Shown here in pieces: positions 11,940-47,791 of a DNA stretch of 48,360 bases. The stretch comes from Blautia sp. (GTDB lineage Bacteria; Bacillota; Clostridia; Lachnospirales; Lachnospiraceae): the NCBI GenBank assembly GCA_023663685.1, contig JAMPHB010000009.1, positions 1 to 48,360 of the forward strand, given 5' to 3'. A program made the translations under genes and the position numbers. Position 1 is the first letter of the stretch; the number at the start of each line of letters is the position of its first letter. The notes under the pieces are model-generated. The model did no database searches and was not told the origin of the DNA. It saw only the letters and a list, made by a program, of their open reading frames with translations.

Positions 11940-13565
11940 ATGCAGATTGGTGGAAATGCGGCCGTATGGGGGCAAATGGATTTTGCACCGGAGGCGGATT
12001 ATGGGAATGCTCCTGCGCTTTTGCAGGATGAGAATAACATAACACTGGAAACAGGCAGGGAAAGTGATACCGGTATCGTCCGGCAGGAGGAAGAGCAGGA
12101 GAGCTACGAGCCATCCGAGGCCGGTCTGTTATTATATTTTGAGCAGCTTAAAAATGCGAAGCAAAACAGCACGCAGCGGGGATCAGACGATGAGATGAAG
12201 GCGCTCAGGATCGCCCACAATATTATGCGGGGTCTGAAGGTTCCGGCGAAGGATGAGAGCTTTCTTCTCTCGAAGAATTTTAAGATGTACATGGCGGCGA
12301 AGAACATGGCCAGTATGAAGGAGTGCAGCGGAGAGGCGGCGAGCGTGCTGGGAGACGATTCCTCTGCGTCGGGAAGCACCTCGGGAAATAGTGCTTCCCC
12401 CGCATCCGGGAGCGTGCCGCAGGAAGCCTCTGCGCCGGGGAGCGCGTCAGCTGCTGTGTTGGGAAGCGGAAGTGCGGAGAAGAACAGCGCGGTCGCATCC
12501 GGGCTGGCATCAGGAAATGCAGCGGAGGTGGATTACAGTGCGCTGCTGGAAAGCGTAAAGGCGATTTCCAAGAACAATATCAGCACTGGCATGAGTGTGA
12601 GCCGCTATGTGAAGAAATCAAAGTACAGTAAGCGTTTTTATTATAATTTTAAGCAGATTTCCGCCCAGATTCTGAGCGCGAAGACCTCCAGCAATGCGAA
12701 GCAGGTGCTGATCCGGGCAAGACAGAAGACCGTTCAGATTCGCAGGAAGTGGAAATATGACGACCAGTCCCTGCAGGCAGCCCTCGTTCATGCGGAGGCG
12801 ATGGAGCGGGTGGCAAAAAAGAAGATGCGCCATCTGCAGGAGGAGGAGGCTGCGGCCGCAAGAGGCCAGGGACTCGGAGGAGTCTGCGCGGGGGACACGG
12901 ATGAGGAAGACCGCATGGAGCAGGAGTGGCAGGATGAGCAGATGCTCATGGAGAAGCAGGCCGAAGAGGCTTCGCCGGTCTATACAATGGCGACGGATAC
13001 AAGCGTACCTCTGGAGGATGTAAATCTCGAGGAGCTGATGGCGGAAGCCATGCAGACGCCGGTTTTAGATTTGACGGCCAGCATGGAGGAGCTCATGGAT
13101 GAGTTCTCGGATATGATGGAGGAGACGCTGGAGGATATGGGACTGGATGAGCTGGCGGATTCTTTGTCGTCCGGCAGGGAGCTGGATCCTGCAGACTTAG
13201 ATGAGCTAAAGCGCAAACACCGGCAGGAGGAGCAGCAGGCGATCGCGGAGGCGGATTCTAAGTATCTCAGGGCATTTTTCCAAAAGCTGCAGCAGGAGCG
13301 GGAAGCGGTAGCCTCCGGCGCGGCGAAGATTGCGGCGGCAGTCAACAGCGGAGCCAGAGTGCTCTCCCTGACTTCTGGCGCCACGACCTCCGGCAGGAGC
13401 GGAGCGGTATCCGCTGCCCCGGCCTCTTCTGTCTCGACGGCCTCTTCTGCCCCGGCGGCAGAGCCCGGCACTTCCACGGGATCCCCCGCAGGCGCGGTGG
13501 TCAGCGCAAGTACGGTGGTGGCGGCAGTCGCGGTGGAGGGGGCTTCGATAGATGTCTCCTTATAG
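11940..13565 (+). CDS. Uncharacterised 541-residue low-complexity protein
   Basis: I do not recognise this family. There is no signal peptide or membrane span. An acidic N-terminus is followed by a conserved-looking segment (about 60-115) with LLLYFEQLKNAKQ and KMYMAAKNMASMKEC. Then come a Ser/Gly/Ala-rich stretch (about 135-195) and a strongly basic helical segment (about 205-300: SRYVKKSKYSKRFYYNFKQI and an Ala/Lys-rich coiled-coil-like part). A very acidic region (about 305-430) with repeated MEELMDEF-type heptads follows, and the tail is Ala/Ser/Pro-rich. The alternation of basic and acidic helices suggests a scaffold or a self-associating protein. GGAGGTGA precedes the ATG. Its stop lies 10 bp from the convergent HD-GYP gene. 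Confidence 0.75.
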   Translation: MQIGGNAAVWGQMDFAPEADYGNAPALLQDENNITLETGRESDTGIVRQEEEQESYEPSEAGLLLYFEQLKNAKQNSTQRGSDDEMKALRIAHNIMRGLKVPAKDESFLLSKNFKMYMAAKNMASMKECSGEAASVLGDDSSASGSTSGNSASPASGSVPQEASAPGSASAAVLGSGSAEKNSAVASGLASGNAAEVDYSALLESVKAISKNNISTGMSVSRYVKKSKYSKRFYYNFKQISAQILSAKTSSNAKQVLIRARQKTVQIRRKWKYDDQSLQAALVHAEAMERVAKKKMRHLQEEEAAAARGQGLGGVCAGDTDEEDRMEQEWQDEQMLMEKQAEEASPVYTMATDTSVPLEDVNLEELMAEAMQTPVLDLTASMEELMDEFSDMMEETLEDMGLDELADSLSSGRELDPADLDELKRKHRQEEQQAIAEADSKYLRAFFQKLQQEREAVASGAAKIAAAVNSGARVLSLTSGATTSGRSGAVSAAPASSVSTASSAPAAEPGTSTGSPAGAVVSASTVVAAVAVEGASIDVSL

Positions 13566-13575
13566 GAGTGATGCT

Positions 13576-15741
13576 TTAGCGTAGGGGGACATTGTGCTCT
13601 TCCCGAAGTGGATTTGTGACAACGTAGTTGATCGTGATATCCTCATCGGTGTTCTGTTTATCGAAAGCATCCCGAATCCGCTTTGTCACAATGCGGATTC
13701 CGCTGTAATCAATGTTTAACAGCATGACCACGCGCTGAATGTTCGAAATCTGTGTGGTCATATCCGAGCTGCGCAGGGAGGATACGACGGACAGCTTCAG
13801 GTTGATCATGGCGAGCCGCTTCTGATCGTCCGTCAGGTACTGGTTCGATTTGGAGTCAATCGTAAACATGATCAGATACATATTCTGCTTGTTGCGAATC
13901 GCCAGATTCTTGATGTAGCTGACGAATTTTCCCCACTCAGCATAGGAGACCTGATAGGCGTTGGAGTACTCCTCTTCGTTAAAGACGGTCTGCATCAGAT
14001 TGTCTAAGTCGTCCTTCGAGAGCTTTTCTCCGGCTTCCTTCTGCTCGATGCAGAAGGAGGCGAACTCCTCTTTGCAGGCCATGCACACATCTACGAGGCG
14101 CGGGTCGAACTGGGTGCCTTTACCCTCATAGATAATATCAAAGGCCTGCTCCAGCGTGAATTCGTCCTTGTAGGGACGCCGGGAGGTCAGAGCGTCAAAG
14201 ACGTCCGCAACGGCCATCACTCTGGCGCACAGCGGAATCTCCTCCCCGGACAGCCGCGTGGGATAGCCGTTGCCGTCCCAGCGCTCGTGGTGGAACATGG
14301 CGGTCTGCCATGCAATCTGGTAGTATTTCTGATCCTCCAGTGTAGAAAGTGTCTCGTCCAGAATATTGCCGCCGAGAAGCGGATGTTTTTTCATAATCTC
14401 ATATTCCTGCGGCTCATATTTTCCGGGCTTGTTCAGGATACTGTCCGGAATAGCAATCTTGCCAATGTCATGCAGAGGCGCGGCCATACAGATATCCTTG
14501 ATATATTCGGGATCCTGAAATTCTGGAAACAGATCCATCTGCGCAAGTCTGTCCGCGAGAATCCGCACATAGCCACTGGAGCGCTTGATGTGTCCTCCGG
14601 TGACATGATCCCTGCTTTCAACCATATTGGCGAAGCTTAGAATGATCTCCTCCTGCATACGCTGGAGGTTTGCCGTCTTTTTGTCAACCTCCTGCTCGAG
14701 AGTCTCATTGAATTTTTCAATCATTGTAATATAGTTCTGCTGCTTGGTGTCGTCAAGTATCTCCACGAGATAGCCCACATGCCGGCTGCTGCTTCCCTGG
14801 AAGATTTTTTTGACATTGCACTTGAGAATCTGGCTGCCGTGAACAATCATTTTCTCTGTGGGTATGTCTTCTCCCCTGCAAAGGGGCTCCAGCCACAGCA
14901 TAATTTCCTGACGGAAGGGGGTATCGTCGTCGCCGACATGGTGGTCGATGCGCAGCGTCCGAACCTCCGGGTATATGGACGTGGCAAAATCGTTCGTATT
15001 GACAAATTTTAAGTCAGTGGTGAATGTAAAATAGCCGTACTCATTCCGATGCTGCATGACGTTCATAACATTGGAGGACATATCGTAGAGGTTTATGCTT
15101 CGCAGGCGGGCAAGCACCAGCCCCTCGGAAATACAGTAGGAGAGCGGCATGAGCTCAATGGGAACGTTAATCAGGCGCTCGGTCAGATAGATGAGGGCAT
15201 TCATTATGACAAGAATACTCAGCATATTTGCAGTTTTGTAGGATACCATCTGCTGCCGGAACATGGAAACTCCAACGATAATGACCATCACAAGCATAAA
15301 GCAGAGCCAGTGTATGAGGTAGGCGCTGTGCAGGGAGCCATATTCCTTTATGAGATATGTACTGCCCAAAAACTGGCGGAGTTCCACGGAACGGTAATAG
15401 ATATCGCTGAATCCGGGAGAAAAGGTACATAAAAGCACAAGGAAATTGTATCCGGTAAGAAGGCAGACTACCAGACTGGGAATCCTGATATGACAGAGAT
15501 CTATCATAATCAGAAAGAGAAAAAAGGGCAGGAATACACCGCCAAGATAGACGATCCGGTTCGCGAGAAGCGCCTCCTCAGTGGAAGTGGAAAGTGCAAG
15601 CGACAGATAACCGAAGTTTGCAATGACTATGGTGACATATGTGAGAATATAGCATACATTGAATTTTATTCCCAGCCAGATAAATGAAAACAAAAACAGG
15701 AGCGATATAAGCAGCATCCCGGTATAATAGCCTATTAGCAT
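13576..15741 (-). CDS. 7TM sensor with HD-GYP domain and degenerate GGDEF-like tail
   Basis: A 721-residue signalling protein. The N-terminal about 220 residues form seven hydrophobic segments like the 7TM region of some histidine kinases. A PAS-like region (about 225-335) and a short coiled coil follow. The HD-GYP phosphodiesterase domain lies at about 360-560 with HDIGK, HHERWDGNGYP and VADVFDALTSRRPYK, so catalytic residues for c-di-GMP hydrolysis look intact. The C-terminal about 120 residues (LSVVSSLRSSDMTTQI, then VVMLLN) resemble a GGDEF fold without the GGDEF signature. AGAGGAG precedes the start on the minus strand. It is transcribed alone. Confidence 0.88.
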   Translation of the reverse strand: MLIGYYTGMLLISLLFLFSFIWLGIKFNVCYILTYVTIVIANFGYLSLALSTSTEEALLANRIVYLGGVFLPFFLFLIMIDLCHIRIPSLVVCLLTGYNFLVLLCTFSPGFSDIYYRSVELRQFLGSTYLIKEYGSLHSAYLIHWLCFMLVMVIIVGVSMFRQQMVSYKTANMLSILVIMNALIYLTERLINVPIELMPLSYCISEGLVLARLRSINLYDMSSNVMNVMQHRNEYGYFTFTTDLKFVNTNDFATSIYPEVRTLRIDHHVGDDDTPFRQEIMLWLEPLCRGEDIPTEKMIVHGSQILKCNVKKIFQGSSSRHVGYLVEILDDTKQQNYITMIEKFNETLEQEVDKKTANLQRMQEEIILSFANMVESRDHVTGGHIKRSSGYVRILADRLAQMDLFPEFQDPEYIKDICMAAPLHDIGKIAIPDSILNKPGKYEPQEYEIMKKHPLLGGNILDETLSTLEDQKYYQIAWQTAMFHHERWDGNGYPTRLSGEEIPLCARVMAVADVFDALTSRRPYKDEFTLEQAFDIIYEGKGTQFDPRLVDVCMACKEEFASFCIEQKEAGEKLSKDDLDNLMQTVFNEEEYSNAYQVSYAEWGKFVSYIKNLAIRNKQNMYLIMFTIDSKSNQYLTDDQKRLAMINLKLSVVSSLRSSDMTTQISNIQRVVMLLNIDYSGIRIVTKRIRDAFDKQNTDEDITINYVVTNPLREEHNVPLR

Positions 15742-38024: not shown

Positions 38025-39692
38025 TTAGAATTGCGGAACCCAGACGCCGTCATAGCCGTCCAGCGGAACCATGCGGACGGATACGGTGGAATTATCCTGC
38101 AAAAAGGTAATATCGACAAGCATGGAGGAGCCGTCCTCTGCCGTCTCCCCTGCGGCCGCCTGCACAAGGCTTTCATCTGTAGAAAGGTTTAAAAGCCATA
38201 CCGCCGCATCGGCCGGGCCTGTCATATCCTCCGCAAGATGCCGGAAGGGTGCAAATTCGCCCAGGCCGTTTGCAGTGTAATCCATAGCTGTTCCCTCAAT
38301 CGGCAGGGAATAGGCATCCATGAATTCCTCATAGGTGGAAATATTGTCAAAAACTTTCAATGTCTCCCCGGTCACTACAAGGTTTTCTCCGTCCCAGTTG
38401 CAGGTCAGTGTCTCCTTCCAGCAGGTCACACTGGGGTCTGACGTCTGCGCATAGTAATATATTTCTGCGCCCGAGCCGTCATACCAGTAAATGTGGTAAT
38501 CTTTTTCGCTCCACGGCCACGGGCTCGACCAGCCGAAGGAGTAGGGTTCCCCTTCTTCGCCAAACAGCAGGCCTTCGGCTTTCAGCGCTTCCACAGCCGT
38601 CGGTGACGCGAGATCTGCAATTGTGCTGCCGTCCCTGCCCACAAATGCGTTTGCCCAGTCATTCAGGGCCTGAGATAACTGTTCCTCATGCAAAATCGCA
38701 TTTGCTTCACCTCCCTGCGCCTTTGGCGTAACGAAAAAGCAAAGCGCGGCCAGCACGCAGATTGTGGCTGCCGTACCGGTAATCCAGACGGCGGGTTTCT
38801 TATATTTTTTAACTCTCATAATTCGCTCCTTTACTCCCACCTCCGCAAAACGGACGGGGCATATTGTAAAAATCCGTTGTTTCCCACTACAGTCCAAAAG
38901 CGCCAGGGAGTATGCTTTCTTCTGTCCCTCGTCCATACCCTTAATCACAGCTTCATCGCAGGCAAGTTCGATATCGCGGCACAGCAGGACATAGGCCAGC
39001 CACACAAAGGGGTTGAACCAGTGAACGCCAAGGATTAGAAACGCCGCAGGCTTTGCCCAGTGATCCCGTCTCCGAAGATGCGTCTGTTCGTGGGCAAGCA
39101 CCAGCTCACGGGTCTTTTCGTCCAGATGGTAGGGCAGATAGATGCGGGGTCTTACAGTTCCTAAAATAAAGGGGGAATCTGCAAACTCACTCTGCCAGAT
39201 ATTATCCCTCAGATGTACAGCGGTATCCATTCTCCGCCGCAGCCTTAGCCCGCTTATGGCCATATAGGCAAGCATCACCAGAGCACCGGAAAGCCAGACA
39301 ATAAAAAGCTTTGCGGATAAAGTGAATGCCCGGGGAGATTCACCCATGAGACTGTCATTCCGGACAATAGCGGTCTCCTGCCCCTGGCTTTGGGCAGGGC
39401 TCTCCTGCTTATTGGCAGTGCTGTCGTTCGCCGCAGCCTGACCGGCTTTGAGAGAACTGTTCTGCTTAAAGGCAGATTCTGTCATAGCAGTCCATGGAAG
39501 CTCTGTGGGCAACAGTCCAAGCCTGCTCTCAAGAGAAAAGGGCAGTATCAGCCGCAGGCCTACAAGGCACCAGAGCAGACAGATCATTCGTTTTGGCGCA
39601 GACCGGAAAAGCTGTCGTATAATGAGAACAGCAAATATCATCCATGTTCCGGTAATACTCAGCCTGAAAAGCTGGAAAATCAAAGCTTCCAT
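38025..39692 (-). CDS. M56 family (BlaR1-like) membrane metalloprotease
   Basis: A 555-residue protein. Four hydrophobic segments and a zinc-protease domain are present, with HEQTH (about residue 200) and the downstream Glu in CRDIELACDEAVI. One further membrane span (about 310) leads to an extracytoplasmic C-terminal domain of about 230 residues that is not a penicillin-binding domain by eye. The start at 39692 is chosen because GGAGG lies five bases upstream; the longer frame to 39710 overlaps that site. BlaR1 relatives sense a ligand outside and inactivate a BlaI-type repressor. No blaI gene is adjacent, yet two dyad operators lie upstream. Confidence 0.87.
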   Translation of the reverse strand: MEALIFQLFRLSITGTWMIFAVLIIRQLFRSAPKRMICLLWCLVGLRLILPFSLESRLGLLPTELPWTAMTESAFKQNSSLKAGQAAANDSTANKQESPAQSQGQETAIVRNDSLMGESPRAFTLSAKLFIVWLSGALVMLAYMAISGLRLRRRMDTAVHLRDNIWQSEFADSPFILGTVRPRIYLPYHLDEKTRELVLAHEQTHLRRRDHWAKPAAFLILGVHWFNPFVWLAYVLLCRDIELACDEAVIKGMDEGQKKAYSLALLDCSGKQRIFTICPVRFAEVGVKERIMRVKKYKKPAVWITGTAATICVLAALCFFVTPKAQGGEANAILHEEQLSQALNDWANAFVGRDGSTIADLASPTAVEALKAEGLLFGEEGEPYSFGWSSPWPWSEKDYHIYWYDGSGAEIYYYAQTSDPSVTCWKETLTCNWDGENLVVTGETLKVFDNISTYEEFMDAYSLPIEGTAMDYTANGLGEFAPFRHLAEDMTGPADAAVWLLNLSTDESLVQAAAGETAEDGSSMLVDITFLQDNSTVSVRMVPLDGYDGVWVPQF

Positions 39693-39735
39693 GGTTCCTC
39701 CAATTTTCACCTTTCGTTTTCTGTAGTGTATAGTA

Positions 39736-39779
39736 ACTCTAACGCGTTCGAGTATAAAAACACTCTAACACGATAGAGT
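39736..39779. promoter_or_regulatory. Two dyad operators, probably for a BlaI/MecI-type repressor
   Basis: ACTCTAACGCGTTCGAGT (39736-39753) and ACTCTAACACGATAGAGT (39762-39779) are related 18-bp dyads 26 bp apart. The first eight bases are identical. They lie between the M56 gene and the divergent secreted-protein gene. The second covers the candidate -10 of the M56 promoter. Confidence 0.75.
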
Positions 39780-39790
39780 GAATATGTCAA
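39762..39790 (-). promoter_or_regulatory. Candidate promoter of the M56 gene
   Basis: On the minus strand: perfect TTGACA (39790-39785), 17-bp spacer, TAGAGT (39767-39762). The -10 is inside an operator dyad, which fits repression. Confidence 0.55.
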
Positions 39791-39868
39791 TATATTTTTG
39801 CTGTTTTCATGGAAATCCAAATACTATTTTTTAGTGGACATTTGAATAAATTGCAGCAAAATGACTAC

Positions 39869-39897
39869 TTGAAAAGACTTGCTTATGGGTATATAAT
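39869..39897 (+). promoter_or_regulatory. Promoter of the first small secreted protein
   Basis: TTGAAA (39869-39874), 17-bp spacer, perfect TATAAT (39892-39897). The -35 is part of TGACTACTTGAAAA (39862-39875), which recurs at the second paralogue's promoter. Confidence 0.8.
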
Positions 39898-39942
39898 AGA
39901 CGAAAGAGCAGATTTGAAAATGGGAAGGAGGAATTTATTTCT

Positions 39943-40356
39943 ATGAAGAATGCAATTAAAAAGCTGTTGGTGTGTGTAACTGTATGCGGCATTGTGGTAG
40001 CAGGGAGTGATACGCAGCTTCTGGCAGACTCGGATTTCTTTAACGGTTCACCGGTTGGCTATAGCGTTACCATGGATTCGGTGTCAGCAACCGCTGTTAC
40101 CTCTTTTTCAAAGCCAGCCGAAGAGATTAGCGTGCAAGCGACGGTATATTACAAGCGGGGGGGAACTACATACCAGCGTAATAGTGGCTGGAAAACAGCA
40201 ACAATAGGAGGCATATCCGCTACGGCAGCCGCGAAGGGACGTAAGACCATAGTGATAGGCGGAAAAGGCGAGCATAGAATCATAAGCAGGCAGGGGACGA
40301 CATGGTCGGGAACCAGCTATGTGGGAACCGTAGAGGAAACGGCAATATTCGAATAA
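39943..40356 (+). CDS. Small secreted protein of unknown family, paralogue 1
   Basis: A 137-residue protein. A signal peptide (about 1-29, KKLLVCVTVCGIVVAG, cut near LLAD) precedes a mature part of about 108 residues without cysteine. The mature part is rich in Thr, Ser, Val and Gly and looks all-beta. It shares with the next gene SATAVT, FSKPA, YYKRGG-type, WKTAT, GG.SAT, GGKGEH and WSGTSYVGTV. I do not recognise the family. GGAAGGAGG precedes the ATG. The location before an ABC exporter suggests a secreted effector, toxin or signal, which is inference. Confidence 0.85.
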   Translation: MKNAIKKLLVCVTVCGIVVAGSDTQLLADSDFFNGSPVGYSVTMDSVSATAVTSFSKPAEEISVQATVYYKRGGTTYQRNSGWKTATIGGISATAAAKGRKTIVIGGKGEHRIISRQGTTWSGTSYVGTVEETAIFE

Positions 40357-40360
40357 AAAT

Positions 40361-40384
40361 GGCAATTTTAAATGCCGCTTTTTT
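40361..40384 (+). terminator. Terminator after paralogue 1
   Basis: GGC-ATTT/AAAT-GCC stem with one bulged base, followed by GCTTTTTT. A short, moderate terminator placed just after the stop codon. Confidence 0.55.
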
Positions 40385-40434
40385 GCCAGTTTTAGACGAG
40401 TTTTGCCATACGCTATTTGACTACTTGAAAAAGA

Positions 40435-40463
40435 TTATAAATGGATGTATGATTCAAAACACG
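40435..40463 (+). promoter_or_regulatory. Promoter of the second small secreted protein
   Basis: TTGAAA (40435-40440), 17-bp spacer, TATGAT (40458-40463). It shares the 14-bp TGACTACTTGAAAA (40428-40441) with the first paralogue's promoter. Confidence 0.75.
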
Positions 40464-40491
40464 GCGGGTCAATGGTGAAAATATAAGGGGA

Positions 40492-40511
40492 AGGAGGGAC
40501 GAGTAATGTAG
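40492..40511 (+). promoter_or_regulatory. Strong Shine-Dalgarno followed by a start-stop (ATG TAG)
   Basis: AGGAGG (40492-40497) is followed eight bases later by ATGTAG (40506-40511). The ATG is 71 bp from the -35, against 74 bp in paralogue 1, so it occupies the ancestral start position. The true start of paralogue 2 lies 61 bp further with its own AGGAGG. Confidence 0.6.
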
Positions 40512-40566
40512 TATACATAAGTCGTTGACTGGCCATGAAAAGAAAAGTACAAGGAGGCTTATTTTT

Positions 40567-40983
40567 ATGAACAAGTTAGGTAAAAAGTTATTAGCGTGTG
40601 TGGCAGCATGTAGTATCGTATTAGCAGCAGGGAGTCATATGCAGGCTTTTGCGGACACAGATTCCTTTAATGGGACAACGGTTTCCTATAGTGTTACCAC
40701 CAATTCGACCTCTGCAACTGCAGTTACTGCTTTTTCGAAGCCGGCTAAAGAGATTAAGGCACGGGCAATTGTATTTTACCAAAGAGGAGGGGGTGCATAC
40801 AAGCGTTATAGCGAGTGGAAAACAGCAACGGTAGGAGGTGTATCCGCTACGGTATCTGTGAAGGGGGCTAATGCACAGGTTGTAGGAGGAAAAGGCGAGC
40901 ATAGCATTACAAGTGAGCAGAATACATATTGGTCGGGAACCAGTTATGTAGGAACTGTGAATGAAGGCGCACAAGTAGAGTAG
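40567..40983 (+). CDS. Small secreted protein of unknown family, paralogue 2
   Basis: A 138-residue protein about half identical by eye to the preceding gene product, with the same layout: signal peptide (KKLLACVAACSIVLAAG, cut near AFAD) and a cysteine-free, beta-rich mature part ending WSGTSYVGTVNEG. ATG 40567 is chosen for ACAAGGAGG upstream; a TTG frame at 40525 would skip it. An 11-codon ORF (MKRKVQGGLFL, from 40535) ends in an ATGA overlap with this start. Function unknown. It is a tandem duplicate with a rearranged leader. Confidence 0.85.
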   Translation: MNKLGKKLLACVAACSIVLAAGSHMQAFADTDSFNGTTVSYSVTTNSTSATAVTAFSKPAKEIKARAIVFYQRGGGAYKRYSEWKTATVGGVSATVSVKGANAQVVGGKGEHSITSEQNTYWSGTSYVGTVNEGAQVE

Positions 40984-40994
40984 GAATGATATCA

Positions 40995-41019
40995 GGGGGC
41001 TTCTATATTAGAAGCTCCC
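40995..41019 (+). terminator. Intercistronic hairpin after paralogue 2
   Basis: Ten-pair stem GGGGGCTTCT/AGAAGCTCCC with one G-U pair and a 5-nt loop. There is no T-tract. It may be a processing site or partial terminator that makes the secreted protein more abundant than the downstream genes. Confidence 0.45.
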
Positions 41020-41042
41020 GCCTTTGGAGGAGATGAGAAAGA

Positions 41043-42353
41043 ATGAAGAAGCTGCTATGTTATGCAGGAATACTGTGCCTGCTTCTGACTTCCTGCGGAA
41101 ATGCAGAGGAGGATAATACCTATCACTGGGGGACGGACAACCAGTATTTTTATAATTATTCATATAGTGTAAAGGGCTTACAAGCAAAGGGGGAGAGCGG
41201 ATACTTTCTTTTTTATGATAATTTTTTATACTATTATGATGATGCAATCGGGCAGGTTGTTCCACTATGCAACCGGGCGGACTGTATGCATGATAAAGAT
41301 CCAGAGAGGAATGGATGGGTTGCTTGTAATGCATTTACCGGGGCTCGGATAGAGAACTTACAGACAGCGGACGATTATTTTGAATTAAACTCTATGGATA
41401 ATACTGGGATTGAATACTCGGATGGCTATCTGTATTTCTTAACTGGAAATTTCAGTGAGGAGTGCCATATGTTGTACCGGATACGGGAGGACGGAAGTGA
41501 ACGTGAGCTGATCTATGAGTTTGGAGATGAAAATATATATGGCTGGTGCATACATAGGGGATACTGCTATTACTCTGCACAGTCTTTCGTGTCATATTTC
41601 GAATCGGGGGAACAGATATATGAGCAGAGAAACGCGATAAAAAGAATTCCAGTCTCAGGCAGCAAGGAGCCGGAAACCATCTTTGTGGAGGAAAAGGAGA
41701 ATAAGAGTATAATGCTTCTCTCTTTGGGACAGAGAATCATCGCATATGGAAGTTATATTTATTTTGAAGACTATGGAGTGAAGACGCTGGATTGGGATGT
41801 TATTACAGAAGAAAATGCTGAAGATTATGAGTATATAGAATATTATGCATACAACTATGTGACAGGAGAGCTGCATGAGATAAGTACGCCGGGGATGCCG
41901 GAGTATGAGGGAGTTCAGGAGGTGACATTCTGGCAGGATTCCATTGTGTTTGCGAGTGGCGGCCGAAAGATTTCTGACAGAGAAGTGACTTACTATATTG
42001 CAGATCTGGACGGAAGCAATGTGAGAGAATTTATGACAGTAGATGATGGAATGCAGTTTGTGAGTGATGGCACATATCTGTATCTCACGAATCAGGCGCT
42101 GCAGAGTGTAGATGATACGGTGACTGAGACTTACTGGGTATATGATCAGGATTTAGAGCTTGTGGACACCTTTACGATAGAATCTCCGGCATATCATACT
42201 ATATCCATCGGAGATGAAAAGTTTTTTTTCGCCTATTCCGTCAATAAAGAGGAGGGAAGCTGGAAGATCCGGCGTTATGACAAATCGGCAATCGGCAGTC
42301 TGAATGGAAAGGAATTAAAGCCCACGGTTATTTCGGAGAGAAAGCTGCTGTAA
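41043..42353 (+). CDS. Lipoprotein with propeller-like repeats, unknown function
   Basis: A 436-residue lipoprotein: the lipobox LLLTSC puts the acylated Cys at residue 18. The body has repeated strands of the type Y.dGYLYFL...yRI..DGs, like DUF5050-type beta-propeller proteins. A motif PLCNRADCMHD with a further Cys-Asn-Ala-Phe (Cys76, Cys81, His83, Cys95) could bind metal or form disulfides. I have seen this motif type in Lachnospiraceae lipoproteins encoded beside ABC-2 transporters. GGAGGAGA precedes the ATG. The permease follows closely. A sensor or immunity role is possible but not shown. Confidence 0.8.
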   Translation: MKKLLCYAGILCLLLTSCGNAEEDNTYHWGTDNQYFYNYSYSVKGLQAKGESGYFLFYDNFLYYYDDAIGQVVPLCNRADCMHDKDPERNGWVACNAFTGARIENLQTADDYFELNSMDNTGIEYSDGYLYFLTGNFSEECHMLYRIREDGSERELIYEFGDENIYGWCIHRGYCYYSAQSFVSYFESGEQIYEQRNAIKRIPVSGSKEPETIFVEEKENKSIMLLSLGQRIIAYGSYIYFEDYGVKTLDWDVITEENAEDYEYIEYYAYNYVTGELHEISTPGMPEYEGVQEVTFWQDSIVFASGGRKISDREVTYYIADLDGSNVREFMTVDDGMQFVSDGTYLYLTNQALQSVDDTVTETYWVYDQDLELVDTFTIESPAYHTISIGDEKFFFAYSVNKEEGSWKIRRYDKSAIGSLNGKELKPTVISERKLL

Positions 42354-42416
42354 GTGAAGATTATGAGATATGAAGTATTGAAATAGTGAAGATTATGAGA
42401 TATGAAGTATTGAAAT
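42353..42416 (+). repeat. Exact 32-bp tandem duplication at the permease start
   Basis: The 32 bp at 42353-42384 are repeated exactly at 42385-42416. Each copy carries an ATG followed by the codons for MRYEVLK. In the first copy this frame stops at TAG (42384-42386). In the second it continues as the permease. The duplication shifted the permease start 32 bp away from the preceding stop codon. Confidence 0.95.
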
Positions 42417-44425
42417 TATGTAAGAGCCGCAGATATGTATTCCTCTCTGTCGTCCTGCTTCTGGGAAGCTGCCTGATGCTGTTTTTTAACATAAAAAACA
42501 CGGCAGAGTACTATTATATCCATGAGTGCAGGCAGCAGTATCTTGCTTTTTTAAATGGCGAGATAGAAGGCGGGGAAGCATTTTTCTATGAGGAGGAGCA
42601 GCAGAGGGAGCAGACATATATCGCCAATTATCCGGCTTTTTTGGAAGGGATGCGGGAGAGGGCGGATCAGCTGCAGAGCTTGTCAGTCTACTCTGCGGAT
42701 ACATATGTGTATGAGAATCTTGAAAAGACCTGTGCGGACTATGAAAAGCTGTCCGGGATTGCGCTGGAGGAGGGCAGTAATTACGGAATCCTTGCCCTGA
42801 CGGGAGATACCTATGGACTTTTTTTCCTGCTTTGTTTTCTTGCGCTGCAGATTTATGAGCTGTTCTTCGCAGAGCGGGGGCGGGGGCTTCTGCTGCTGCT
42901 TAAGGCGACAAAGGGAGGACATGCGGTTCTGGCCTTCAAAAAGGCTGTTGTGAGCTGTATTGGCGCCGCCTGCTTTGCGCTGCTGCAGGAAATTGCGGCG
43001 GTATTGCTTGTCGGCTGGATATACGGTTTTGGAGATACTGGCCGTATGCTGCAGTCGGTTCCGGCTTTTCGGAACTGTGCCTATCGTATCACTGTGGGGC
43101 AGGCGGTTTTATGGCTGTTGATCATCCATGTGCTGATTGCCGCCGCTGTGTCGGCTCTCTTTTTTCTGGTGGGCGCGTGTGTCCGAAATGAGCTTTGGGC
43201 AATGCTGATTCTCTCCGGGACTTTGGCGGCGCAATATTTTCTGTGCCCAGAGGTGAACCCGTTCTATTGCTGGAATATGCAAAAGACGCTGGGGCTGTAC
43301 CGAAATCTCAATATTTTTGGACATGCCTGCGGGCGGAATGCGGTCGCCTTAGTGTGTGGAGGAATCTTTGTGCTTCTGGCATGGGGCATAGGGATGTATG
43401 TGTTTCACCAGACCTGCCAAATCCGGACACAAAGTATTTTTGAGCGTATATTCTGGTATGTCCGAAGGCTGCTTGCCCCGCTTTGGCGTAATACCTGCCT
43501 GCTGTGGTTTGAGAGTGCAAAAATCTGGATTCAGCAAAAGCGTGTGTGGCTTGCGATGCTATTGTTTCTCTGGTGTGTGGACAGTGTGGCTTCCTTTGCC
43601 GGAGTGCAGTACTACAAATCTGCGGAGCTTATGAATTACCACGCCTATCTCAATGACATTCATGGAAGAATTACGCCGGAGACGCTGGAGTATATAGAGG
43701 AACGGAATGCCTATATTCAGAAGCTTTACAGCCGGCTGGAGGCGCTTGGGGAAAATCTCTCTGAGGAGGGGAGGATTATTGAGGAAAGCCTCCGCTATGA
43801 GCTGGACATGCACGAGGCGGCCGTGGAGCGGCTGAATATGCAGATGGAGGCCTTAAAAGGCAGAGAGAGGGAATTGTCTGACCAGTATCTGGTGGATGAA
43901 GTGCTTTATACAGAGATTTGGAGCGATAAAAAGCGGGAGCTCTTCCGGCTCTGTATCTGTGCAATCTCGTGCATTTTATTTGTCAGCGGGATTTATTCCA
44001 TGGATGAGAAAAAAGGGCTTATGCCGCTGTTGTCCGCTACATACCGCGGCAGAGGAACGTTGAAAAGAAGAAAGCTTCAAAGCGGAGCAATCGGCGCTGC
44101 GGTTCTCATTCTTATGTGTGAAATTCCGGCGGTATATCAATACTGGAGAGTGGACGGCTTTTCCTGCATGGGAATTCAAATGTGTGATTTTACTAACATG
44201 CTTTATGAGGGCGGGCTGACGCTCGGTGGTTTTATCTGTCTTTGTGTCGGTGTCCGTATTCTGTTTTATGCGGCGGTTACTTATGGAACAATGAAGCTTG
44301 CAGGCGTGGTGAAGAATGAGCTGGCGGTCTGCCTTGTGGGAATCAGCGCTGTGTTATGTACGGCAGGGATTTTCTGGATTTTGGGAACGGATATCAGTGA
44401 GCTTCTGCTGCGGCTGCAGCCTTGA
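42395..44425 (+). CDS. Large ABC-2 type permease with internal duplication
   Basis: A 676-residue membrane protein with about twelve hydrophobic segments in two similar halves. Each half starts with a short basic entry (YEVLKLCKSRRYVFL and WFESAKIWIQQKRVWLAMLL). A charged extracytoplasmic loop follows, then a matching cytoplasmic element (FFAERGRGLLLLLKATKGG and SMDEKKGLMPLLSATYRG). ATG 42395 is in the second copy of the 32-bp duplication. There is no clear Shine-Dalgarno, so translation probably depends on coupling with the upstream gene or the mini-ORF ending at 42386. It pairs with the ATPase 10 bp downstream. Confidence 0.85.
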   Translation: MRYEVLKLCKSRRYVFLSVVLLLGSCLMLFFNIKNTAEYYYIHECRQQYLAFLNGEIEGGEAFFYEEEQQREQTYIANYPAFLEGMRERADQLQSLSVYSADTYVYENLEKTCADYEKLSGIALEEGSNYGILALTGDTYGLFFLLCFLALQIYELFFAERGRGLLLLLKATKGGHAVLAFKKAVVSCIGAACFALLQEIAAVLLVGWIYGFGDTGRMLQSVPAFRNCAYRITVGQAVLWLLIIHVLIAAAVSALFFLVGACVRNELWAMLILSGTLAAQYFLCPEVNPFYCWNMQKTLGLYRNLNIFGHACGRNAVALVCGGIFVLLAWGIGMYVFHQTCQIRTQSIFERIFWYVRRLLAPLWRNTCLLWFESAKIWIQQKRVWLAMLLFLWCVDSVASFAGVQYYKSAELMNYHAYLNDIHGRITPETLEYIEERNAYIQKLYSRLEALGENLSEEGRIIEESLRYELDMHEAAVERLNMQMEALKGRERELSDQYLVDEVLYTEIWSDKKRELFRLCICAISCILFVSGIYSMDEKKGLMPLLSATYRGRGTLKRRKLQSGAIGAAVLILMCEIPAVYQYWRVDGFSCMGIQMCDFTNMLYEGGLTLGGFICLCVGVRILFYAAVTYGTMKLAGVVKNELAVCLVGISAVLCTAGIFWILGTDISELLLRLQP

Positions 44426-44435
44426 GGGAATAACG

Positions 44436-45302
44436 ATGGAATTATGTCTGAAAGAAATTAAAAAAGTATATGTGAAGCGTCAGCCGCCTGCGGTGGATAT
44501 GGTCATAGCGGACTTTTCGCCGGGGGTGTACGGGCTCTTAGGCGAAAACGGGGCAGGGAAAAGCACGCTTATGAACATTATCACGGGCAATCTGAAGCCG
44601 AATTCCGGTACGGTGACATGGGATGGTGAGAGCATTCAGTCGCTGGGGGCGGCGTTTCGGGCGCGGCTTGGCTATATGCCCCAGCAGCAAAATCTGTATG
44701 ATGATTTTACGGGCGAACAGTTCCTGTGGTATATGGCGGCGCTCAAGGGGCTAAAGAGAAAGGCGGCGGTGGAGCAGATTGGAGAGCTGTTTGAGATCGT
44801 GCATCTGCAGAAGGAGCGATTTGATAAGCTTAAGACCTATTCGGGGGGAATGAAGCAGCGGATCTTAATTGCGCAGGCACTGCTGGGAGATCCCAGGCTG
44901 CTGGTTTTGGACGAGCCGACAGCCGGACTTGATCCGAAGGAGCGCATCCATATCCGCAATTTTATCAGTGAGATTTCTAAGGACAAAATAGTGATCCTTG
45001 CCACCCATGTGGTATCGGATGTGGAGTATATAGCAAAGGAAATACTGGTTTTAAAGAAGGGGCGCATTGTTAAGGCAGGGGCGCCGCAGGCTCTGACCGG
45101 CGAACTGGCGGGAAAGGTGTTCGAGGTGCGGACAGATGTAAAAGGGCGGAAGTGGTATGAGGAGGAGGGATATCGTATTGCGAATGTGATGCTGGAGGGG
45201 GAGAAGAGCTGTCTCAGGATCGTGTCGGATGAGCGGCCCGGCCGGGGAGAGGTGGAAACGGTGCGCCCGAATCTGGAAGAGGTGTATCTGTATTATGGGT
45301 AG
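44436..45302 (+). CDS. ABC transporter ATP-binding protein
   Basis: A 288-residue ATPase with Walker A GENGAGKST, signature YSGGMKQR, Walker B LLVLDEP and H-loop ATHV. ATG 44436 is chosen with GAGGGA upstream; an open frame from 44316 lies inside the permease gene. It forms the exporter with the preceding permease. The C-terminal about 70 residues after the H-loop resemble regulatory tails of ABC-2 exporters. A strong terminator follows, closing the secreted protein/exporter unit. Confidence 0.93.
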   Translation: MELCLKEIKKVYVKRQPPAVDMVIADFSPGVYGLLGENGAGKSTLMNIITGNLKPNSGTVTWDGESIQSLGAAFRARLGYMPQQQNLYDDFTGEQFLWYMAALKGLKRKAAVEQIGELFEIVHLQKERFDKLKTYSGGMKQRILIAQALLGDPRLLVLDEPTAGLDPKERIHIRNFISEISKDKIVILATHVVSDVEYIAKEILVLKKGRIVKAGAPQALTGELAGKVFEVRTDVKGRKWYEEEGYRIANVMLEGEKSCLRIVSDERPGRGEVETVRPNLEEVYLYYG

Positions 45303-45320
45303 GCGATAAGAAGCGGACAG

Positions 45321-45366
45321 AAAGTAGGATTTTGGTGTACGGGTACACCGGATTCCTACTTTTTTA
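45321..45366 (+). terminator. Strong terminator after the exporter genes
   Basis: Long stem GTAGGA...GGTGTAC/GTACACC...TCCTAC with an internal mismatch region, followed by TTTTTTA. Confidence 0.88.
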
Positions 45367-45373
45367 TAAAAGG

Positions 45374-45401
45374 TGTAACAAAAGGGCTTTAGATATTCGT
45401 T
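45374..45401 (+). promoter_or_regulatory. ECF-type promoter-like motif before sigma gene
   Basis: TGTAAC (45374-45379) and CGTT (45398-45401), 18 bp apart, resemble -35 TGTAAC/-10 CGWC of some Firmicutes ECF sigma promoters. They may mark autoregulation. The alternative is an ordinary A/T-rich -10 in TATTATATATAG just downstream. Confidence 0.3.
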
Positions 45402-45437
45402 ATTATATATAGAGATAAAAGAGGTGGGGATATACAA

Positions 45438-45962
45438 ATGCTGGTGATGGTTGAGACGCCGGAGGATAAACGGAAATTTACTGTGATGTATGAAAATTAC
45501 AGGCATTTGATGCATAAGGTTGCATGGAATGTGCTGCACGACGATTATCTGGCGGAGGACGCCGTACATAATGCGTTTATCCATCTGGCAAAAAATATGG
45601 ATAAAATCGAAGACCCCATGAGTATTTCGACAAAACGGTATCTGATAGTGCTGGTAAAGAATTCGGCCATAGATATCTACCGGAAAAGGAGCCGGCAGAT
45701 GAAGAAGGAGATTTTTGTGGATGAGCTGCAGGAGGGGGAGACGGTCACATATATGGAGACGGGGATGGATAACCGGGTGCTGGATATTCTTAAGAATCTG
45801 CCGGTGAAATACCGGGATATTTTTCTGCTCAAATATTCTGCGCATATGAACAATGCGGAGATTGCAGGACTGTGTGGAATCAGGGAGGGAACTGTCCGGC
45901 AGCGGATTGCGCGAGGCAAGGTTATGGTAGAAGATGAACTAAAAAAGCTGGAGATGGATTGA
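45438..45962 (+). CDS. RNA polymerase sigma factor, ECF-like
   Basis: A 174-residue sigma factor. Region 2 (about 15-85) has DDYLAEDAVHNAFIHLA and YLIVLVKNSAIDIYRK. Region 4 (about 115-165) has LPVKYRDIFLLKY and helix-turn-helix NAEIAGLCGIREGTVRQRI. The start codon is ATG 45438 with GAGGTGGGG upstream. One base separates its stop from the next start, so it is co-translated with a probable anti-sigma. The neighbouring exporter and secreted proteins are candidate targets. Confidence 0.92.
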   Translation: MLVMVETPEDKRKFTVMYENYRHLMHKVAWNVLHDDYLAEDAVHNAFIHLAKNMDKIEDPMSISTKRYLIVLVKNSAIDIYRKRSRQMKKEIFVDELQEGETVTYMETGMDNRVLDILKNLPVKYRDIFLLKYSAHMNNAEIAGLCGIREGTVRQRIARGKVMVEDELKKLEMD

Positions 45963-45963
45963 G

Positions 45964-46647
45964 ATGGGAAAGATGCAGGCGACAGATGAGATGCTGTATA
46001 AATACATGCCCATTGTAGATGAGGCAATCATAGAAGAGCTGGAAAAGGAGACAGACTACGATTATAGATTTTCTGACCAGTTCCAGATGAAGATGAAATG
46101 GCTGATTTGGAGGGAACGCCATATGGACATGCGGCGTTTTTGTCGGAAATACGGAAGCCGTGTGGCAATATTTGCTGTGCTGTTGCTGGCAGTTGGAATC
46201 GCTGTGGCTATGCGCGTGGAGGGAGAGCATGTGGAATTCTTTGCAAAGCTTGCACACCCTGACAGCAGTTTCGATGATACCAGTGCCGCAGCTGATGAAG
46301 AGGCAAAAGCTGTGCTTACGGAGCCGGGCTATGTTCCAGAAGGGTATGTGCTGGCTTCCGAGGATATCAATAACCAGTGGATGTTTTGGATATATGAAAA
46401 CGAGACGCTGGGAAGGGAATTAACGCTTATTCGGGATAAGGTGGTGGATGCTGAAAAGAAGGAAACAGATACAGAATATGATTTTTCAGAGGAGATAGAG
46501 CTGGAATGCGGAATGATTGAGGTGCATGGCTATAATGGCGGATATGTTTTTGCCTGTTTTGAGTTTGAAAATTATAGCTATACTTTGAAGGGCGCTGATT
46601 TGGATTTAGAGGAAATTAAAAAGATATATGAAAACTGGATTTACTAA
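45964..46647 (+). CDS. DUF4367 membrane protein, probable anti-sigma
   Basis: A 227-residue protein. About 67 cytoplasmic residues are followed by one transmembrane span (IFAVLLLAVGIAVAM) and an extracytoplasmic domain. That domain contains EPGYVPEGYVLASED and IEVHGYNGGYVFACF, typical of DUF4367. The gene follows the sigma factor by one base, and topology fits an anti-sigma factor. That role is inference. The C-terminal coding region nearly reaches the following lipoprotein gene. Confidence 0.85.
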   Translation: MGKMQATDEMLYKYMPIVDEAIIEELEKETDYDYRFSDQFQMKMKWLIWRERHMDMRRFCRKYGSRVAIFAVLLLAVGIAVAMRVEGEHVEFFAKLAHPDSSFDDTSAAADEEAKAVLTEPGYVPEGYVLASEDINNQWMFWIYENETLGRELTLIRDKVVDAEKKETDTEYDFSEEIELECGMIEVHGYNGGYVFACFEFENYSYTLKGADLDLEEIKKIYENWIY

Positions 46648-46669
46648 AATTTTTATGGAGGTACTATTT

Positions 46670-47791
46670 ATGAGGACAGTCAGGAAATACGGAGCGAATG
46701 GGAAAAAGCAATTGATTTTTATTTTTATGGGGTTGCTGATGGCTGCTGCCCTGTGCGGCTGCGGGGAAGAGGGAACGAAGCACGATTATATGTCTGCAAA
46801 AACGCTGTCATATGATTCTCTGGAGCAAATGGAAGAGGACAGTGATTTGATTGTGCGGGGAATACGGCTTGACAGGGAAGAAAATGAGATTCAAAGAGAA
46901 AATGGACGGGTTATAAGCGCGTATTGCTTTTCAGATTTTCGGGTTACGGACATATACAAAAAGAAAGAGGACGAAGATATTCAGGAGGGGACTGCTATAA
47001 CCATTCTGGAAAATGAGGCGTATGATGAAGAGACAGATGTCATTTACCATGTGAGCGGCTATAATAAAATGATTGCTGGCGATGAATACCTCCTCTTTTT
47101 ACATGAGGCGGAATATGAGGACACAAAATACTATGTTGCGGCCGGAGTGAATTATGGCACAGTATCCCTGCAGGCTGACAAAAGGACAGAGTCCTATACA
47201 AGTGAAACGGGAGAGTTAGTGAATTTCAGTATTTATGAGGAAATCTGGCAGGCAGCGAAGGAGAAGTATGTAGAAAATTCGCTTGAGCGTTACTTATCCG
47301 TGGAGCTGCCCCGGTCTCTGGAAATTGGCAAGCATTCTCCCTATATGTTTGGCCCGGGTGATGGCTATCTGTTTACGGGAGATTATGAGGAACCGCTTCA
47401 TGGGAAAGATGTGCCTGCATACAGACTCAGCCCGGGTGGAATCTACTGGGGCGCGGGGGAGGATAGAAAAACCATACTATCCGACGGAGTGATTGTAGAG
47501 GCGGATTACGCGCATGACAATCACGCCGCCATCGTTTCCGATCTGGAACCGATTGGTGGCTGTGAATGTATCGCAGCTATACAAAAGTGGAGCATTGACC
47601 GTTTTACCGCTGTGGAGCTTGAGGAACTTAACGTTGCGGAGGAAATCGCGGGCGGGTATTACTGGTTTATCTATATGGCGAAGGAGGATTCCGCGCAGGA
47701 GTATATCTTCTTTTTGGATGCAGGTCTTTTTTCAAGGGAGGAAGCTGTCCGAATGGCGCAGAGTGTGCATTTTACGGACGAAGCGTTTTGA
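46670..47791 (+). CDS. Lipoprotein of unknown function
   Basis: A 373-residue lipoprotein with lipobox AALCGC near residue 33 after a basic N-terminus. ATG 46670 is chosen because GGAGGT lies seven bases before it; ATGs at 46628 and 46655 are less likely. The N-terminal part (about 45-190) resembles a cardiosome-free small beta domain with DLIVRGIRLDREENEI and GDEYLLFLHEAE. The C-terminal part (about 280-370) has EYIFFLDAG and AVRMAQSVHF, reminiscent of DUF4367-like domains. I cannot name the family. It may act with the sigma/anti-sigma pair as an envelope sensor. Confidence 0.75.
   Translation: MRTVRKYGANGKKQLIFIFMGLLMAAALCGCGEEGTKHDYMSAKTLSYDSLEQMEEDSDLIVRGIRLDREENEIQRENGRVISAYCFSDFRVTDIYKKKEDEDIQEGTAITILENEAYDEETDVIYHVSGYNKMIAGDEYLLFLHEAEYEDTKYYVAAGVNYGTVSLQADKRTESYTSETGELVNFSIYEEIWQAAKEKYVENSLERYLSVELPRSLEIGKHSPYMFGPGDGYLFTGDYEEPLHGKDVPAYRLSPGGIYWGAGEDRKTILSDGVIVEADYAHDNHAAIVSDLEPIGGCECIAAIQKWSIDRFTAVELEELNVAEEIAGGYYWFIYMAKEDSAQEYIFFLDAGLFSREEAVRMAQSVHFTDEAF

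Follow-up and report, generated by a model that had tools for sequence, protein, structure and literature searches.

We analysed a stretch of 48,360 nucleotides (hereafter the window) from a Blautia sp. genome of 2.32 Mb that is 82% complete and divided into 31 contigs. In this window, eight consecutive genes on the forward strand encode, in order, two small secreted proteins (A and B), a lipoprotein, a permease, an ATP-binding cassette (ABC) ATPase, an extracytoplasmic function (ECF)-type sigma factor, a DUF4367 protein and a second lipoprotein-like protein. The first five genes, which are the subject of this work, are as follows:

39943..40356, + strand: small secreted protein A, 137 amino acids; mature part of about 109 amino acids from D29 (cleavage site placed by eye)
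40567..40983, + strand: small secreted protein B, 138 amino acids; mature part of about 109 amino acids from D30, modelled as a beta-sandwich
41043..42353, + strand: propeller-type lipoprotein, 436 amino acids, with a C-x4-C-x-H...C motif
42386..44425, + strand: fused double ABC-2-type permease, 679 amino acids with the GTG start, 676 with the ATG that follows
44436..45302, + strand: ABC ATPase, 288 amino acids; the ATG at 44436 is the likely start

The start of B was placed at the ATG at 40567, and not at the TTG at 40525, because the sequence AAGGAGG precedes 40567. A preliminary description of this DNA had reported two tandem cysteine-free secreted paralogues followed by a lipoprotein with a Cys/His motif, a duplicated permease and an ATPase, and we found all of these between 39943 and 45302.

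Proteins A and B are identical at 84 of 138 columns (61%), possess Sec-type signal peptides, as judged by eye and by a home-made rule, and contain no cysteine in their mature parts. Neither had a match above the cut-offs of Pfam or NCBIfam (best E 0.02), and none was obtained from PADLOC (E 0.01) or PHROGs (E 0.1); the mature part of B was modelled confidently as a beta-sandwich (predicted local distance difference test score, pLDDT, 93.7), which agrees with the earlier view of the small proteins as beta-rich and outside the known families. The structural neighbours of the B model were generic beta-sandwiches, among them the curli-related CsgC and CsgH, the MspA rim domain, the fimbrial subunit AggA and CBM56, none of them decisive, and no confident match to a characterised structural protein was found. 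These neighbours, together with a fimbrial-adhesin match below threshold in a relative (locus L060, E 0.012), would suit a surface, matrix or adhesin role, in which A and B would be structural or sugar-binding beta-sandwiches and the lipoprotein their assembly or anchoring partner. However, the eight genes scanned (Pfam, NCBIfam and eye) revealed no sortase motif and no gene for pilus assembly, and neither an ABC-2 pump nor the linked divergence of the lipoprotein described below would be expected of such proteins, and we consider this role unlikely.

The lipoprotein has the lipobox LLTSC (by eye) and a Cys/His motif, C76-x4-C81-x-H83...C95, a stricter form of which was present in 55 of 80 matches. 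Its model is of the propeller type but of low confidence (pLDDT 63.6), with Foldseek TM-scores of 0.15-0.49 by query length, and most of its top-ranking structural matches are proteins that we take to be known propellers. The window protein had no Pfam match at E up to 10, whereas relatives at loci L104 and L105 scored above the cut-off for DUF5050 (PF16472), for which Pfam lists no function. The permease contains 11 hydrophobic segments, and its two halves are homologous (hhalign probability 99.4, E 8.6e-22), indicating an internal duplication; its match to ABC2_membrane_2 in Pfam (E 0.0035) was below the cut-off, and no NCBIfam match and no DUF1430 match were obtained at E up to 10. The ATPase belongs to ABC_tran (PF00005; 112.6 bits against a cut-off of 25, E 2.8e-32) and is related to, but not a member of, the lantibiotic-protection family TIGR03740 (134.9 bits, below the cut-off of 309.75). 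Lipoproteins resembling solute-binding proteins, which are odd partners for an ABC-2 permease, were encountered in some propeller loci, namely in L116 (10330-11868; SBP_bac_8, E 2e-12), in L131 (3663-5231; below the cut-off) and in L062 (9054-10595; by eye).

Members of the small-protein family are rare and patchily distributed. A search of 98 genomes with B gave three convincing genomes (the window's own, G037 and G013), all within the 60 genomes of its genus, so that the family was present in 3/60 of these; five further genomes matching at E 0.02-0.1 were too weak to be accepted as members. With a family profile, of which G306 was itself a part, the 397 genomes of the taxonomic family included three that reached E 1e-10 (G306, G429 and the genome of the window) and 43 that reached E 0.05; the 391 genomes of the class included one that reached E 1e-10 (the genome of the window) and four at E 0.001. 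One more small gene, in G268 (L096), was reached through the lipoprotein search (E 4e-9). The accepted family comprised 10 genes on seven contigs of six genomes, eight of them admitted on sequence alone and those of G306 (first match at E 4.7e-4) and G268 with the help of their neighbourhood. In all ten cases, including all eight admitted on sequence alone, the next gene, directly or via a tandem small gene, encoded the propeller lipoprotein, and the permease and ATPase genes came next on six of the seven contigs; L060, the remaining one, breaks off within the lipoprotein gene. The profile search and neighbourhood comparison thus gave no sign of paralogues that are widespread apart from the lipoprotein and ABC genes, the outcome that the preliminary description had regarded as speaking against a system. 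Excluded from the ten were the small genes of G104 (L061, E about 2e-6), which lead into a lipoprotein gene, those of G488 (L062, E 4e-6), where another gene intervenes, and that of L109 (E 2.5e-4); candidates in G358 (L063) and G322 (L020) were dropped, with weak matches and other gene settings, as were other weak matches.

A similar association was seen outside the A/B family. Using loci fetched by lipoprotein or permease searches only, we found a secreted open reading frame (ORF) of 85-200 amino acids directly upstream of 11/62 propeller lipoproteins, as against 14/568 other genes (odds ratio 8.5, p 5e-6). This count depends on the home-made signal-peptide rule, includes tandem genes, which are not independent, and uses profiles built in part from loci that have small genes; the 62 exclude loci retrieved through the small protein, which the 568 controls include, and the L095 lipoprotein was missed by gene picking. 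Restricted to the permease-search loci, the count was 5 of 36 propeller lipoproteins. Ten small proteins upstream of propeller lipoproteins beyond the A/B family had no family match above cut-off. One small secreted protein found upstream of a propeller lipoprotein, in L130 (3808-4338), resembles, by eye, a ricin-type lectin repeat; it had no Pfam match above cut-off.

Permeases of this family occur far more often than the small genes. In the permease-search loci, which held 40 permeases, a propeller lipoprotein lay within three genes of 31, an ATPase of 33 and both of 24. A tree was built of 61 permeases, some of them from loci fetched for their small gene; L109 and L123, in which the small gene is out of line with the permease, were scored as lacking one. 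On this tree there are at least 10 changes between having and lacking a small gene, seven of them forced by well supported branches, and small genes seem to come and go. This scatter, the abundance of the module and its distant versions with solute-binding-protein-like lipoproteins (L116 and, more weakly, L131) would be natural if the lipoprotein, permease and ATPase formed a general envelope-stress or solute-handling module with the small genes as chance upstream passengers. Against this stand the upstream enrichment, the linkage within the A/B family, the linked divergence and the co-duplication of small and lipoprotein genes, and we hold such a chance association to be very unlikely. The permease data also bear on the preliminary description, which had compared the layout with bacteriocin/immunity or peptide-sensing clusters and had taken the ABC transporter for the exporter of the small proteins. 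The first part of that view stands, but the second was not supported: export of A and B by the transporter would explain why small genes are conservedly linked to ABC genes, yet A and B have Sec-type signal peptides, a small gene is in line with only 13 of the 61 permeases in the tree, and the small-lipoprotein pairs of G104 have no ABC pair within the 15 kb of ORFs viewed, which makes such export highly improbable.

Comparison with the closest relative of the window, G037 (L016, JAMPCA010000001.1), revealed a localised block of divergence. The two align over 39832-45317 at 92%, with a divergence of 17.6% inside 40654-42000 versus 5.0% elsewhere in the alignment (Fisher odds ratio 4.1; 8 of 549 circular blocks as high), the block limits having been picked after the gene-level divergence numbers. 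In B, nonsynonymous divergence (dN) was 0 in the signal peptide and 0.02 in residues 30-56, rising to 0.31 in residues 57-90 (synonymous divergence, dS, 0.64) and 0.19 in residues 91-138 (dS 0.56). In the lipoprotein, residues 1-30 had a dN of 0.03 and a dS of 0.11, residues 31-250 a dN of 0.10-0.22 and a dS of 0.43-2.4 (dN 0.22 and dS 2.4 in residues 91-150), and residues 251-436 a dN of 0.04-0.06 and a dS of 0.10-0.21. The genes for A, the permease and the ATPase, each taken whole, had a dN of 0.01-0.03 and a dS of 0.13-0.25. Residues 57-138 of B and 31-250 of the lipoprotein have therefore changed jointly, with both signal peptides and the intergenic gap little changed. In the one sister pair compared that has no small genes, G429:C1 and G494, the lipoprotein had no hotspot (dN 0.04 versus 0.06 for the permease). 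A recent transfer between the window's genome (G000) and G037 was not supported: dnaK is 95% identical, and its distance from the cluster is about 17 kb in G037 and 2 kb in the window.

Joint divergence of B and the lipoprotein is predicted for effector-immunity and ligand-receptor pairs alike. The main rival explanation is kin recognition or peptide sensing, with the small protein as the signal, the propeller lipoprotein as its receptor and the ABC transporter relaying or modulating the response; the joint change of B and the lipoprotein's N-terminal half would fit any such ligand-receptor pair. Regulatory genes are also at hand: AgrB near L018, L099 and L101; a GHKL kinase and a LytTR regulator near L018, L099 and L105; other kinase/response-regulator pairs near L104 and L154; and sigma factors near the window cluster, L100 and L154. 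In G013, for example, genes for AgrB (PF04647, E 2.7e-36), a GHKL kinase and a LytTR regulator lie upstream of the small gene, and an AgrD-like peptide scored just under the cut-off (TIGR04223, 16.3 bits versus 19). The type of regulator varies from locus to locus, however, and the sigma pair comes and goes, which would be more natural for genes that control expression than for an invariant signalling pathway, and in G013 Agr would already provide the signal. On balance, we find a signalling role rather unlikely.

In G429, two contig ends, which probably adjoin, judging from synteny with G496, hold three different small genes, one of them truncated where a contig stops; a lipoprotein gene comes after each of the three, and one permease-ATPase pair follows the small-lipoprotein pairs. 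Small-lipoprotein pairs are repeated in G429, G109 and G104, indicating that they were duplicated as units, and between paralogous small proteins the signal peptide is kept and the core is most variable. The syntenic locus of G496 has the same flanks and the lipoprotein, permease and ATPase genes, with no room for a small gene. Between G109:C4 and G433 (no small gene there), one lipoprotein gene was kept, one had moved and one was different, and the other genes compared were 98-100% identical.

Two known types of system resemble the unit. Members of the lactococcin 972 family (Lcn972, streptococcin B and mediterrocin) are, as predicted for A and B, small Sec-secreted unmodified beta-rich proteins whose genes adjoin those for a large membrane protein and an ABC ATPase (PMC12345188, PMC11796350), and mediterrocin, a product of Mediterraneibacter gnavus, has been reported from Lachnospirales and Eubacteriales (PMC12345188). 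However, mature mediterrocin has 89 amino acids (PMC12345188) as against about 109 for A and B, and the partner there is a seven-transmembrane DUF1430 protein, whereas the unit has a propeller lipoprotein and a duplicated ABC-2 permease with 11 hydrophobic segments. A, B and two relatives (L018 and L019) matched no lactococcin 972 model of Pfam or NCBIfam at E up to 10, and the Lcn972 structure was not among the 50 structural neighbours listed for the B model. In lantibiotic immunity, LanI binds the lantibiotic and LanFEG, with six helices per membrane subunit, expels it (PMC5786555), so that a lipoprotein is combined with an ABC ATPase and two membrane halves as in our unit. LanE and LanG are, however, two separate six-transmembrane permeases, in contrast to a single fused chain of 679 amino acids with homologous halves, and LanI is unlike the lipoprotein of the unit, which exceeds 400 amino acids, is of the propeller type and carries a Cys/His motif. 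No lanthipeptide precursor or modification enzyme was found by Pfam and NCBIfam among the eight genes at 39943-47791, to which this search was limited. On these comparisons, the unit belongs to neither group; it may work like LanI plus LanFEG, and it parallels clusters of the lactococcin 972 type. No report of a unit combining A/B-type proteins with this lipoprotein and ABC transporter was found in the open-licence literature searched.

We give about an even chance to the reading in which the unit encodes a Sec-secreted, unmodified, bacteriocin-like protein, the propeller lipoprotein cognate to it and a protective ABC transporter resembling LanFEG. In this model, A and B would be secreted via Sec as unmodified, cysteine-free beta-sandwich effectors acting on other bacteria; the propeller lipoprotein on the surface of the producer would bind its cognate small protein through the N-terminal half, as the linked divergence suggests; and the fused ABC-2 permease with the ATPase would remove or repel the bound protein at the membrane, in the manner of LanI and LanFEG in lantibiotic producers. 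The observations behind this model are gene linkage, secretion-type signals, the permease duplication, a low-confidence propeller model, linked divergence in one species pair, the duplication of pairs and one syntenic module without a small gene, whereas the killing activity, the binding and the protection by the ABC transporter are inferred. The model is further favoured by the secreted ORFs enriched upstream of propeller lipoproteins, the patchy occurrence of the family, the hairpins between small and lipoprotein genes, the AgrB, GHKL and LytTR genes of G013 and the kinship of the ATPase with lantibiotic-protection ATPases. Extending this model, we tentatively propose, as possible rather than probable, a widespread and so far unrecognised class of systems for interference or recognition among gut Clostridia. 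Its Sec-secreted beta-sandwich proteins would change fast and would each be paired with a C-x4-C-x-H...C propeller lipoprotein for specific immunity, supported by a fused ABC-2 pump, the cassettes being swapped, duplicated and lost so as to leave orphan immunity modules.

Several observations weigh against the bacteriocin-like model. No bacteriocin was matched by sequence or by confident structure (Pfam, NCBIfam and structural neighbours), and recognition, signalling or adhesion pairs could yield the same patterns. The divergence block comes from a single species pair, the window and G037, between which residues 30-56 of B and the whole of A (95%) are conserved, and because dS is raised as well, exchange with a divergent allele accounts for the block without positive selection. 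Between G429:C28 and G496, of which only G429 carries small genes, dN was 0.14 for the nearest lipoprotein, barely above that of the permease (0.13). For G306 and G268 the lipoprotein linkage is in part a circular argument, since their neighbourhood was used for admission. The permease family is common, with matches in 102 of 299 genomes of the taxonomic family at 1e-10, many of them partial, and 48 of the 61 permeases in the tree have no in-line small gene, so that the basic job of the permease need not be immunity to A/B-type proteins; clustering of small genes on this tree was weak (10 changes versus a shuffle mean of 12.0, with 30 of 500 shuffles as low). If the model is correct, this conserved but patchy cassette would supply testable effector-protector pairs in gut anaerobes, in which, to our knowledge, few protein bacteriocins have been worked out, and the propeller/permease/ATPase module could be used as a handle for small secreted genes that family models miss.

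The remaining features of the region, which include putative signals for expression of the unit and an accessory segment, are as follows:

39869..39897, + strand: sigma-70-like promoter of A, TTGAAA-17-TATAAT; ACTACTTGAAAA is common to the promoters of A and B
40425..40453, + strand: sigma-70-like promoter of B, TTGAAA-17-TATGAT; contains the stretch ACTACTTGAAAA shared with A
40995..41019, + strand: hairpin in the gap that separates B from the lipoprotein gene, a possible attenuator; -18.1 kcal/mol with surroundings, z -2.8
45318..46650, + strand: accessory segment of 1333 bp with a terminator-like hairpin and the genes for the sigma factor and the DUF4367 protein; absent in the sister species
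45438..45962, + strand: ECF-type sigma factor with Sigma70_r2 and r4 domains
45964..46647, + strand: DUF4367 protein, partner gene of the sigma factor
about 46655..47791, + strand: second lipoprotein-like protein of no known family, about 378 amino acids; start set to match the sister's gene

Promoter-like sites numbered 21 in the region versus a shuffled mean of 15.9, which is weak evidence alone. Hairpins in the gap between small gene and lipoprotein gene were present in all four cases folded (the window, L016, L018 and L059; z -2.1 to -4.1), whereas that in the gap between A and B was no better than shuffles (z -0.8). Such a hairpin could favour the transcript of the small gene; in G306, however, the small-gene and lipoprotein ORFs overlap and leave no space for one, a further point against the bacteriocin-like model. 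The sigma/anti-sigma pair, which the preliminary description had noted directly after the ATPase, was rejected as a core part of the system. The 1333-bp segment, whose terminator-like hairpin has a z of -5.5, is absent from G037 and from 9 of the 10 genomes searched with its DNA, and of the sisters G109 and G433 only the former has, at G109:C4 (L100 5896-7336, about 1.44 kb), a sigma factor and following gene that the latter lacks (L155, about 13325-13579). The sigma/DUF4367 pair is taken as accessory on these comparisons. The second lipoprotein-like gene, by contrast, lies directly 3' of the ATPase gene in the sister species and is thus part of the conserved stretch.

Regulatory genes flank other loci as well. 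L154 (4617-13602) has a two-component system, a propeller lipoprotein, a permease, an ATPase, a sigma factor with its partner and a second ABC ATPase, with no small gene. In the window, a gene for a BlaR1-type M56 peptidase lies at 38025-39710 on the reverse strand (E 3.3e-47), and upstream of it, at about 39720-39790, dyad repeats of the form ACTCTA...TAGAGT were noted by eye, which are possibly an operator.

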